From an uncultured Candidatus Saccharimonas sp. (GTDB lineage Bacteria; Patescibacteriota; Saccharimonadia; Saccharimonadales; AWTP1-31), in contig CALRBE010000004.1 in the NCBI GenBank assembly GCA_943354005.1, forward strand, positions 68,600 to 104,876: a DNA stretch of 36,277 nt, read 5' to 3'. This document shows positions 34,898 to 36,277 of the stretch, piece after piece (within the stretch, counting starts at the first letter, position 1; every line of letters begins with the position of its first letter). The notes below the pieces were generated by a model. The model was not told the DNA's origin and did not search any database. It saw nothing but the letters and a program-made list of their open reading frames with translations. Both the position numbers and the translations under genes were made by a program.

Positions 34898-35161
34898 ATG
34901 GAAAATTTAATTCATTCTGGAGATTATTGGGTCCTACTCATTTCTATCATGAGTATAGGCTTATTAATGTTGCCCAAAACACGATTTTTAGGCTTTGTTG
35001 GCGCCATAATAACGACAATCTACATAGATCGAAATTATAACTCTTATAGAGCAATTTTACATGTTGCGTTGACGTTTTTGTGCGTATATATCCTGCGCGT
35101 AGCTTTGCAAAAGTATGCATTATCTACAGTAGACAATAAAAAAGATAATTTGCAAGAGTAA
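34898..35161 (+). CDS. Small membrane protein of unknown function, 87 aa
   Basis: Not recognised. Hydrophobic segments at about residues 10-26 (YWVLLISIMSIGLLMLP), 28-43 (FLGFVGAIITTIYI) and 51-70 (ILHVALTFLCVYILRVAL), then a polar tail rich in Asp, Asn and Lys. Probably an inner-membrane protein with two or three passes. The end of the gene overlaps the -35 box (35150-35155) of the downstream attenuator transcript. Coding status is supported by length, the -10 box and its place between a terminator and a promoter, not by homology. Confidence 0.6.
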   Translation: MENLIHSGDYWVLLISIMSIGLLMLPKTRFLGFVGAIITTIYIDRNYNSYRAILHVALTFLCVYILRVALQKYALSTVDNKKDNLQE

Positions 35162-35178
35162 TATATATAGTGTAGTAT
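35150..35178 (+). promoter_or_regulatory. Promoter of the trp leader-trpS unit
   Basis: TTGCAA (35150-35155), 17-nt spacer, TAGTAT (35173-35178). The leader-peptide ATG at 35186 is 7 nt downstream, so the transcript would begin at its first codon. Confidence 0.65.
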
Positions 35179-35185
35179 GTCTTCT

Positions 35186-35245
35186 ATGAGTAAAATTAAC
35201 ACTTATACAAACTGGTTTAGCCGACAACTCTGGACGGTTTATTAA
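35186..35245 (+). CDS. trp leader peptide, 19 aa, two Trp codons
   Basis: Encodes MSKINTYTNWFSRQLWTVY, stop TAA at 35243-35245. Trp codons are at 35213-35215 and 35231-35233, a high density for such a rare residue. The second Trp codon and the following Thr-Val-Tyr codons form the antiterminator 5' arm (35232-35240). An in-frame ATG at 35177 could add three residues (22 aa), but the promoter position favours 35186. Its product is expected to have no function beyond ribosome positioning. It sits directly upstream of an intrinsic terminator and trpS. Confidence 0.8.
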   Translation: MSKINTYTNWFSRQLWTVY

Positions 35246-35295
35246 GTATTAATAAAATTTTATAGCATAAAACCGTCCACTAGGGCGGTTTTTTT
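35232..35295 (+). promoter_or_regulatory. Trp-responsive transcription attenuator (antiterminator/terminator switch)
   Basis: Arm A GGACGGTTT (35232-35240) is a perfect 9-bp complement of arm B AAACCGTCC (35270-35278). Arm B, extended to AAAACCGTCC (35269-35278), also pairs over 10 bp (one G-T) with arm C GGGCGGTTTT (35283-35292) around an ACTA loop, followed by Ts to 35295: a classic terminator. A:B and B:C exclude one another. A ribosome at the leader stop covers arm A and favours termination. One stalled at the first Trp codon, 17 nt before arm A, leaves A free and favours read-through. This is attenuation by low charged tRNA-Trp. Confidence 0.85.
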
Positions 35296-35319
35296 AATTT
35301 GAAAAATGGAGAAGAAATA

Positions 35320-35472
35320 ATGGAATTAACTCATTCTGAAGCAAGAGAAATACTAAAAAATAACAATATTGAAATCGCGATTGAAGACCCTCGAACAATC
35401 GAAGAAATTGCCATACAGCTAATAGAAATAGGCGATGTTGCATTATCTGGGTTCAATCAAGAAAATACATAA
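35320..35472 (+). CDS. Small acidic protein of unknown function, 50 aa
   Basis: Not recognised. ATG at 35320 with GGAG (35308-35311) 8 nt upstream, directly after the attenuator terminator and 61 nt before trpS. The sequence starts MELTHSEAREILKNN, has IEDPRTIEEIAIQLIEIGD and ends FNQENT. It is acidic and probably helical, with no cysteine or membrane segment. The good SD, the codon pattern and its place inside the attenuated unit argue that it is translated and shares trpS regulation. Confidence 0.65.
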   Translation: MELTHSEAREILKNNNIEIAIEDPRTIEEIAIQLIEIGDVALSGFNQENT

Positions 35473-35492
35473 ATAACAACTATCACTAAGAA

Positions 35493-35508
35493 GGTGCCAT
35501 ATGTCACC
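35493..35508 (+). repeat. 16-bp imperfect palindrome before trpS
   Basis: GGTGCCATATGTCACC matches its own reverse complement at 14 of 16 positions. It lies in the gap between the 50-aa gene and trpS, about 16 nt before the trpS SD. It could be a protein-binding dyad or a small RNA hairpin (GGTG/CACC). Confidence 0.4.
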
Positions 35509-35533
35509 AAAGTAACGTATAATAGGAGATATT

Positions 35534-36277
35534 ATGAAAAAACCAGTAATACTAACAGGATTAAGATCAAATAATGATCTTCACATTGGAAACTACCTTG
35601 GCGCACTGATGCCATTAATTAACATGCAGGTTCAGCATGCAAAGGATTATGATATTCATTTATTTGTTCCTGACCTTCATAGTTTCACCACGCCCATAGA
35701 CCATAGCAAACTATATGAACAAACGATTAATAACCTTCGAATCTATTCTGCAGCAGGATTAGACCTAGATAGTCCAAATACACACATATATAGACAAAGT
35801 TATGTATCGGCTCATTCAGAGCTCACGGTCATATTAAACTGCTTTAGTCATATGGGTGAGCTTAGTCGTATGACTCAATACAAGGAAAAAGCTGAGAACA
35901 AACCAAATATTAGCGTTGGTCTTTTCGATTATCCAATTCTAATGGCCAGCGACATTCTTTTATACGATGCTCAATATGTTCCTGTAGGCGCTGACCAGTC
36001 TCAACATATTGAATTAGCTCGCGATATAGCGATCCGTATGAATAATAAGTTTGGGGACTTATTCACACTTCCTGAGCCGGAGGCTAAACAAGCCGAGTTC
36101 ATGAGCCAAACGGGACGTATGCGTATTCGCGACCTAATTACTCCAGAGAAAAAGATGAGTAAGTCAGATGAAACCGGAAAAGGTGTAATTTTTCTTACCG
36201 ACACTCCTGAAGCAGCTGCAAAGAAAATAATGGGAGCAACAACTGACAGCTTTGGAGAAGTTCATTATGACAAAAAA
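35534..36277 (+). CDS. trpS: Tryptophanyl-tRNA synthetase, 3'-truncated by window edge
   Basis: Class I synthetase charging tRNA-Trp; the first 248 residues are present. HIGH-type motif is HIGN at 17-20 in DLHIGNYLGA, the KMSKS loop is at 207-211, and MTQYKEKA plus GADQSQHIELARDIAIR are TrpRS-specific. The ATG at 35534 has AGGAG 5 nt upstream. A TATAAT (35518-35523) just ahead lacks a good -35, so most expression probably comes through the attenuator. The missing part is the C-terminal helical end of a family normally about 330 aa. Confidence 0.97.
   Translation, partial: MKKPVILTGLRSNNDLHIGNYLGALMPLINMQVQHAKDYDIHLFVPDLHSFTTPIDHSKLYEQTINNLRIYSAAGLDLDSPNTHIYRQSYVSAHSELTVILNCFSHMGELSRMTQYKEKAENKPNISVGLFDYPILMASDILLYDAQYVPVGADQSQHIELARDIAIRMNNKFGDLFTLPEPEAKQAEFMSQTGRMRIRDLITPEKKMSKSDETGKGVIFLTDTPEAAAKKIMGATTDSFGEVHYDKK

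Follow-up and report, generated by a model that had tools for sequence, protein, structure and literature searches.

Is the leader in front of trpS, the gene for tryptophanyl-tRNA synthetase (TrpRS), in an uncultured Candidatus Saccharimonas sp. an attenuator, and if it is, which amino acids would it sense and which genes would it serve? Saccharibacteria and other Patescibacteria are usually seen as amino-acid auxotrophs with little regulation. The DNA analysed here, which we call the window, is a stretch of 36,277 nucleotides (assembly GCA_943354005.1, contig CALRBE010000004.1, positions 68,600 to 104,876 of the forward strand), and a first-pass annotation had described in it a complete ribosome-mediated Trp attenuator controlling trpS. 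Judging from the sequence, we consider it quite probable that the element is a ribosome-mediated transcription attenuator and the local member of a family of aromatic amino-acid leaders that extends across the Saccharibacteria order.

Anatomy of the probable attenuator

The attenuator region occupies 35150-35295 of the + strand, from a promoter-like site to a T-run, ahead of trpS. Arm A (35231-35240) is the 5' arm of the antiterminator, and arm B (35269-35279) is common to the antiterminator and the terminator. Arm C (35283-35292) and the T-run (35289-35295), together 35283-35295, form with arm B an intrinsic terminator. All the elements named by the first-pass annotation, that is, the promoter-like pair, the leader open reading frame (ORF), the arms, the T-run and trpS, are present where it had placed them. 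It had described the antiterminator as a perfect 9-bp helix, and 35232-35240 do pair perfectly with 35270-35278, but the helix is actually 10 bp long, as the pair U35231-A35279 extends it. Its energy is -12.8 kcal/mol. The terminator joins 35269-35278 to 35283-35292 by 10 bp including one G.U (-13.8 kcal/mol), and seven T stand after its helix. The two helices, A:B and B:C, are mutually exclusive, with arm B in both.

In the whole window, an A/B/C triple of 8 bp with TTTT occurs a single time on the + strand, at the attenuator, and once on the - strand, where it is AT-rich. None of 2000 dinucleotide shuffles of 35161-35534 yielded such a triple.

Relatives of the leader and covariation of its arms

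For 111 trpS genes, as much as 1.5 kb of upstream DNA was scanned, making no use of the peptide, for a pattern in which a GC-rich word A is followed by its reverse complement B, then by A once more and by T. This gave 12 matches, 11 of them distinct (L002 and L100 are the same contig). All 11 distinct loci were in Saccharibacteria, each with TGGTTT 18-26 nt before A. The window was absent from these matches: its words A and C are not identical but differ at one base, hence the G.U in the terminator.

A covariance model, R1, was built from 16 aligned leaders chosen with TGGTTT-type anchors; among the anchored candidates, L011 and L097 did not fit the terminator pattern, and the seed also excludes L005 and L107. 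A full-length match (E <= 7e-7) was found in 104 of the 392 genomes of the order, including the window's own, where the leader scores 74.3 bits. The 104 genomes carried 23 of the 37 family labels, and besides the window's own genome there were 104 full-length loci in the other 103. At E <= 0.01 the model matched in 228 of the 392 genomes, with many matches partial or confined to the terminator. As a control, 380 kb around 60 trpS loci outside Saccharibacteria gave one match, of 13.5 bits (E = 1).

Model matches also reached beyond the order (15 of 23 matched genomes outside). When all 15 outside loci were viewed, eight looked leader-like by eye (L250, L251, L252, L253, L255, L256, L259, L260). 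Of the other seven, five were plain-terminator-like or unclear, and L258 and L262 had Ile/Leu-rich short ORFs.

We examined covariation on 119 model matches, a few of them antisense or partial, against 500 shuffles in which relatedness was ignored. A:B was paired in 87.1% of cells and contained 64 double-changed cells, compared to 24.7 +- 3.9 in the shuffles; B:C was paired in 95.2% of cells and contained 38, compared to 6.1 +- 2.2. Neither count was reached in any of the 500 shuffles. Shifting the partner by 1-3 columns lowered the pairing of A:B to 21-49% and that of B:C to 33-64%. The covariation of A:B is the more independent of the two because the alignment was fitted to B:C. The mutually exclusive antiterminator and terminator are thus backed by covariation, and the expectation of the first-pass annotation that relatives would keep a Trp codon and show compensatory changes in the arms was borne out: the first Trp codon is kept, and A, B and C covary.

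For a fourth, protector arm a single candidate was tried, ACCG:CGGT, which was paired in 75.7% of cells with covariation not above that of the shuffles. The design had been described as one of three arms only, and this result agrees with it. On the result for this one candidate, we rejected the assignment of the leader to the classical four-arm trp type, in which a protector 1:2 helix is formed. Attenuators without a protector arm exist.

The leader peptide and its codon block

The leader ORF (35186-35245, +) has 19 codons, from ATG 35186 to TAA 35243-35245, and encodes MSKINTYTNWFSRQLWTVY; an in-frame alternative ATG at 35177 would make it 22 codons. It has Tyr at 35204, Trp at 35213 and Phe at 35216 (35204-35218), and we take these to be the control codons. 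In relatives the same residues form a block, [YF]WF. The window is unlike this block in that its Tyr stands three codons ahead of Trp. The start lies 9 codons before the control Trp, and this distance is 9-11 codons in 92 of 109 leaders. The 109 leaders comprise the window and the best 111 of the 119 alignment rows after removal of three: L220, which lacks a start, a match of L221 lying at a contig edge, and an antisense row of L196. No two of the 109 are nearly identical.

The aligned Trp was present in 104 of the 109 leaders, with Tyr or Phe directly before it in 93 and Phe directly after it in 89. Since the model was seeded with TGGTTT leaders, these counts are partly circular, and the 11 word-scan loci are the cleaner evidence. 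A short predicted leader ORF with Tyr, Trp and Phe codons, having the same block in relatives, is what we found, and the name "Trp attenuator" is in this respect too narrow.

The distances between the peptide and the RNA arms were also regular. Of 94 leaders that could be measured, 86 had 19-22 nt between the Trp codon and arm A, and 78 had 25-34 nt between the stop codon and arm B. Such spacing agrees with a ribosome that, given the usual footprint size, would not reach A while stalled at the aromatic block and would cover A at the stop codon. Counted from the Trp codon, arm A occupied each of the three frames (41/35/18), and it is therefore the RNA, not the peptide, that is conserved at arm A.

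The first-pass annotation had counted two Trp codons, 35213 and 35231, and had taken the first as the one at which a stall would matter. The spacing to arm A argues for the same choice. The second (35231-35233) lies inside arm A and was rejected as a control codon; it is not conserved, being kept in L178 and L206 and replaced by Arg in L198, of the same genus, and L180. The leader is thus not one of two conserved Trp codons.

The leader promoter

The promoter-like pair at 35150-35178 (+) consists of TTGCAA (35150-35155), a spacer of 17 and TAGTAT (35173-35178). The promoter was placed at the right site by the first-pass annotation, but the match is weak, only 4/6 and 4/6, and a consensus promoter scan of the window did not return this pair. 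TTGCAA is retained in a relative of the same genus (L084/L198). In the family the signal was clearer: upstream of the leader start, the best-scoring -35/-10 pair reached at least 9/12 matches in 81 of the 109 leaders and in 4 of 109 random ATGs, a somewhat flattering contrast because the leader search could pick among in-frame starts and the random-ATG null could not. The spacer was 17 in 70 of the 109 leaders.

The -10-like TAGTAT ends 7 nt ahead of ATG 35186, which is leaderless geometry, and the gap from -10 box to start codon was 6-9 nt in 89 of the 109 leaders. With such a gap, transcription should begin at or beside the start codon. We therefore think, from the promoter spacing, that the mRNA of the leader peptide is probably leaderless.

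Genes behind the leader and the choice of codons

Gene contexts were compared in 101 loci, that is, 100 relatives and the window. A trpS on the same strand followed the leader in 89. Of the 12 loci without it, five reach a contig end within 1.7 kb, and seven show 4.5 kb without trpS. Among the 89, the interval from the last leader to trpS contained nothing besides small or unclassified ORFs at 44 loci and lacked any same-strand ORF of 45 codons at 9. It held a DAHP synthase-like gene, alone or with others, at 18 loci and racemase genes at 9, with other contents in the rest. The gene families come from single linkage at E 1e-4, and individual members may be wrong.

Several of these genes scored above Pfam cut-offs. 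They were DAHP_synth_1 (L002, 43.3 bits), DAHP_synth_2 (L206), prephenate dehydratase (L170, and L205, where chorismate mutase and ACT accompany it), prephenate dehydrogenase (L219; as a domain in L231 and L266), a chorismate-binding enzyme with an anthranilate synthase N-terminal domain (L196), class IV aminotransferase (L205) and Asp/Glu racemase (L181). By NCBIfam, the chorismate-binding/anthranilate synthase protein gave 473.5 bits with the TrpE model, below its cut-off of 517.7, and L266 was below the cut-offs of the prephenate dehydrogenase models.

The codons of some leaders changed with the gene behind them. In L231 and L266, where tyrA comes directly after the leader, the leader contains at least three Tyr codons and lacks Trp. 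In L196, the leader that precedes trpE carries two Trp codons upstream of arm A, neither of them next to Tyr or Phe. Outside the order, three leaders with tandem Trp codons (TGGTGG) precede trpB (L250, L253, L259; TIGR00263 above cut-off), which is followed by trpS in L250 and L253, while L259 has only trpB in view. Three leaders directly before pheA keep Trp, with a Phe mean of 3.3 compared to 1.9 before a small ORF and trpS. By eye, no leader with a terminator was seen upstream of four other tyrA-like genes in the window's family (L268-L271), so that the claim of Tyr leaders is limited to L231 and L266. Taken together, the leader looks aromatic rather than Trp-only.

Upstream of one of the four tyrA-like genes, in L271 (G005), there is a short aromatic-rich ORF, MNRFWYYWSTLL, with no evident terminator.

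We have to consider here that the element might after all be a Trp-only attenuator serving trpS, with the Tyr and Phe neighbours incidental. Trp is indeed the most conserved residue, trpS stands behind most leaders, in nine cases without an intervening same-strand ORF of 45 codons, and the tandem Trp codons before trpB, twice with trpS after it, agree with such a role. Nevertheless, the frequency of Tyr or Phe before Trp and of Phe after it, the occurrence, in other species, of the leader ahead of general aromatic genes, and the TATAAT-like box before trpS described below make this explanation rather unlikely.

The small ORF and trpS

Downstream of the terminator and ahead of trpS there is a 50-codon ORF (35320-35472, +) with a Shine-Dalgarno-like GGAG, and this is the first gene behind the attenuator. 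It matched no Pfam family above cut-off. Relatives of it lie between leader and trpS in L084/L198 (same genus) and in L086/L178 and L088/L223 (same family); in L223 the relative sits behind a DAHP synthase-like gene, and longer versions precede the Asp/Glu racemase gene in L159 and L170.

trpS itself (35534-36277, +; PF00579, 177.9 bits) runs off the window. Among named sequences, its protein has its best relatives in Saccharibacteria; the assignment of the compared genomes to this group rests on that result and on loci that are identical in both sets (L002 and L100). The first-pass annotation had regarded its product as the only TrpRS, and a single match was found in the 752-kb genome with the window protein as query, a search that a distant paralogue could escape. 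A TATAAT (35518-35523, +), probably of a trpS promoter, lies 10 nt before its ATG. Like the 50-codon ORF, it goes unmentioned in the first-pass annotation. TATAAT with at least 5/6 matches stood before 77 of the 89 leader-linked trpS genes, of which 56 were perfect, and in 67 of the 77 it lay 6-11 nt before the ATG; at random positions it was found in 33 of 303, 4 of them perfect. It also stood before 41 of 47 trpS genes of our first set compared to 16 of 60 of other bacteria. In G002, whose TrpRS is 99% identical, the trpS locus has neither leader nor small ORF, but the block GGTGCCATATGTCACCAAAGTAACGTATAATAG is intact.

These findings suggest that trpS probably has its own promoter. Because of the conserved TATAAT, attenuation probably only adds to trpS expression; through the attenuator, starvation would probably induce an additional supply of trpS mRNA. 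The expression "controlling trpS" is therefore too simple, since the 50-codon ORF comes first and trpS has a conserved -10-like box of its own.

One could go further and regard the small ORF alone as the output of the attenuator, with trpS a mere neighbour on its own promoter. The 44 intervals with nothing but small or unclassified ORFs, the TATAAT, and G002, which lost the leader yet keeps the trpS -10 block letter for letter, are all in line with this. We think it unlikely, however, because nine loci have no intervening ORF and the link of leader and trpS persists when the intervening genes are exchanged.

A near-perfect inverted repeat, GGTGCCATATGTCACC, occupies 35493-35508 at the -35 region of trpS. 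It is kept in G002 (L082), not in G001 (L084), and is a possible operator.

We also considered depletion of aromatic residues in the small ORFs as a sign of expression under starvation. Trp was lacking in 42 of 54 small ORFs, and the frequencies in small ORFs and in flanking genes, respectively, were 0.30% and 0.50% for Trp, 1.9% and 2.6% for Phe and 1.8% and 3.6% for Tyr. We rejected this sign as too weak, as small proteins may differ anyway.

Aromatic biosynthesis in the lineage of the window

Searches of the window's genome (G000, 98.5% complete) for DAHP synthase I, DAHP synthase II and prephenate dehydrogenase gave no match. The auxotrophy supposed by the first-pass annotation is consistent with this result for the three families, which were the only part of the pathway searched. 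Within the window's family, the leader of G005 is still followed by a DAHP synthase of class II, and a prephenate dehydrogenase-like gene was found in 5 of 7 genomes. We rejected Pfam DAHP_synth_1 as a census of DAHP synthases in this family: it matched in 0 of the 7 genomes, yet a G003 gene (L088/L223) clusters with DAHP synthases although it matches no Pfam family itself, so that absence by this model is not proof of absence. A likely history is that the biosynthetic gene was lost while leader, small ORF and trpS were retained. The sensing of supply by an auxotroph, as first proposed, is accordingly not a special case, as relatives carry the same leader on biosynthetic genes.

If the biosynthetic gene was lost in the window's genus, the attenuator might be an evolutionary relic in decay. 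The missing DAHP synthase and prephenate dehydrogenase matches, the weak promoter of the window and the absence of the leader from the G002 trpS locus point in that direction. This is improbable, however: both 10-bp helices are intact, their departures from the family consensus are joint ones (GGACGG with CCGTCC), and the score of the leader is 74.3 bits.

Proposed mechanism

We infer that the leader is translated, that the ribosome stalls in it, that polymerase can read through into trpS, and that all three aromatic amino acids matter. A short, probably leaderless mRNA would begin at or beside the leader ATG, so that a ribosome would follow RNA polymerase at once. When charged tRNA-Trp is ample, the ribosome would reach the stop codon and mask arm A, B:C would form, and transcription would end. 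If tRNA-Trp lacks its amino acid, and probably, judging from the codon block, also if tRNA-Tyr or tRNA-Phe does, the ribosome would stall about 20 nt before A. A:B would then form, the terminator would be blocked, and the polymerase would enter the 50-codon ORF and then trpS. The geometry found above agrees with this scheme, in that a stall at the control codon would free arm A and a ribosome at the stop codon would cover it. The attenuator would be the main switch for the 50-codon ORF and would add a starvation-induced supply to trpS, which probably has its own promoter too. In relatives, the same element stands ahead of genes for DAHP synthase, prephenate dehydratase or dehydrogenase, or anthranilate synthase.

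Several points weigh against this interpretation. The energies of the terminator and the antiterminator are almost the same (-13.8 and -12.8 kcal/mol), and the fold predicted before C is transcribed is A:B even without a ribosome. As there is no protector arm, read-through is to be expected from a transcript that is not translated, in contrast to the trp leader of E. coli. Leaderless initiation would keep this untranslated state rare. As for the statistics, the covariation shuffles ignored relatedness; in one of five measures, the number of A:B pairs with any double change, the value of 7 was close to that of the shuffles (5.8 +- 0.7, reached by 55 of 500); and seeding on TGGTTT-type anchors favours that motif among later matches. 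Most leaders have a single conserved Trp codon, and the pheA leaders still carry Trp, so that codon matching is loose. The leader promoter of the window matches the consensus at 8/12 only. Finally, 164 of the 392 genomes of the order gave no model match even at E 0.01, and the leader is missing at the trpS of G002, a genome of the same genus that is 72% complete; elsewhere in that genome no leader DNA was found, the one exception being a weak model match at E 0.0017.

If an aromatic attenuator is the correct explanation, about one fourth of the sampled genomes of the order would possess a protein-free starvation sensor before aromatic biosynthesis genes and trpS. This would be a control circuit open to study in cultured host-epibiont pairs, and small proteins without known function would become probable products of a starvation response. 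The window may illustrate a switch that outlived the pathway once under its control. We may speculate further, with considerable doubt, that minimal three-arm attenuators, their leader peptides leaderless, occur throughout Patescibacteria, sense all three aromatic tRNAs at Tyr/Phe-Trp-Phe, swap codons according to the gene they serve (Tyr codons with tyrA, tandem Trp codons with trpB), and have been re-used after pathway loss to induce tiny orphan proteins and trpS when the host stops the aromatic supply.

Comparison with known systems

The attenuator of the enterobacterial trp operon is of the classical type. As described in PMC1262725 for Corynebacterium and Streptomyces, that type resembles the window in its leader peptide with Trp codons, its antiterminator and terminator with a common arm, and its intrinsic terminator; the trp leaders there have two or three Trp codons. 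In contrast, the present family has one conserved Trp codon in an aromatic block, not double or triple Trp, lacks a supported protector arm, probably has a leaderless leader mRNA, and has targets that range from aromatic genes to a small orphan ORF with trpS.

Attenuators of synthetase genes, namely trpS2 of Streptomyces avermitilis, leuS of Streptomyces and pheST of gamma-proteobacteria, are also described in PMC1262725, and like the window they place a leader peptide that contains the cognate codon upstream of the gene for the synthetase. The window differs in that the gene of its sole detected TrpRS lies behind an intervening ORF and also has a -10-like box of its own, in belonging to another phylum, and in having no Rfam match.

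The nearest amino-acid leaders in Rfam, RF00513 Trp_leader and RF01859 Phe_leader, are of the same functional class as the window leader, but the window leader belongs to neither (14.8 bits, cut-off 41, and 24.5 bits, cut-off 55, respectively) and is absent from Rfam 15. A T-box or other Rfam riboswitch was rejected, since only a tRNA was found in the window at gathering cut-offs. In the open PMC literature, judged by titles and abstracts and with subscription journals mostly uncovered, there was nothing on attenuation in Saccharibacteria or Patescibacteria. The leader family is uncatalogued in the sense of Rfam 15 and this literature.

Arrest as in TnaC, in which a WF-containing nascent peptide would sense free tryptophan and stall the ribosome near the stop codon, is suggested by the length of about 24 residues with a central Trp-Phe and by the regular distances from start to Trp and from Trp to stop, but it is very improbable, because species differ in the frame, any of the three, that is used for the sequence following WF(T), the C-termini are varied with no conserved arrest sequence, the codon variants include Tyr leaders before tyrA that switch the amino acid, and the family has an intrinsic terminator, whereas TnaC works with Rho.

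Further observations on the family and the locus

The species-rich genus label g54 of family f34 showed weak or no model matches except in G349 (E 5.5e-6), so that the attenuator seems to be missing in some lineages.

The two Ile/Leu-rich loci outside the order, both in other Patescibacteria, have terminator-linked short ORFs on the - strand. That of L262 (4501-4610) is Leu-rich, NNNALLLLLPRGAC, and that of L258 (4501-4619) is Ile/Leu-rich, TSIIIAIILLARR. They are possible branched-chain attenuators whose targets are unclear.

Two leaders were seen on one strand of the same locus in L156, L170, L181, L184, L186, L188, L192, L196, L202 and L221. Such tandem leaders are usually separated by a gene or a small ORF; in L196 the first stands before DAHP synthase and the second before trpE.

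Between rpsI and the leader, the window has an 87-residue hydrophobic ORF (34898-35161). It matched no Pfam family above cut-off, and relatives of it lie near the leader in L198, L180 and L223.

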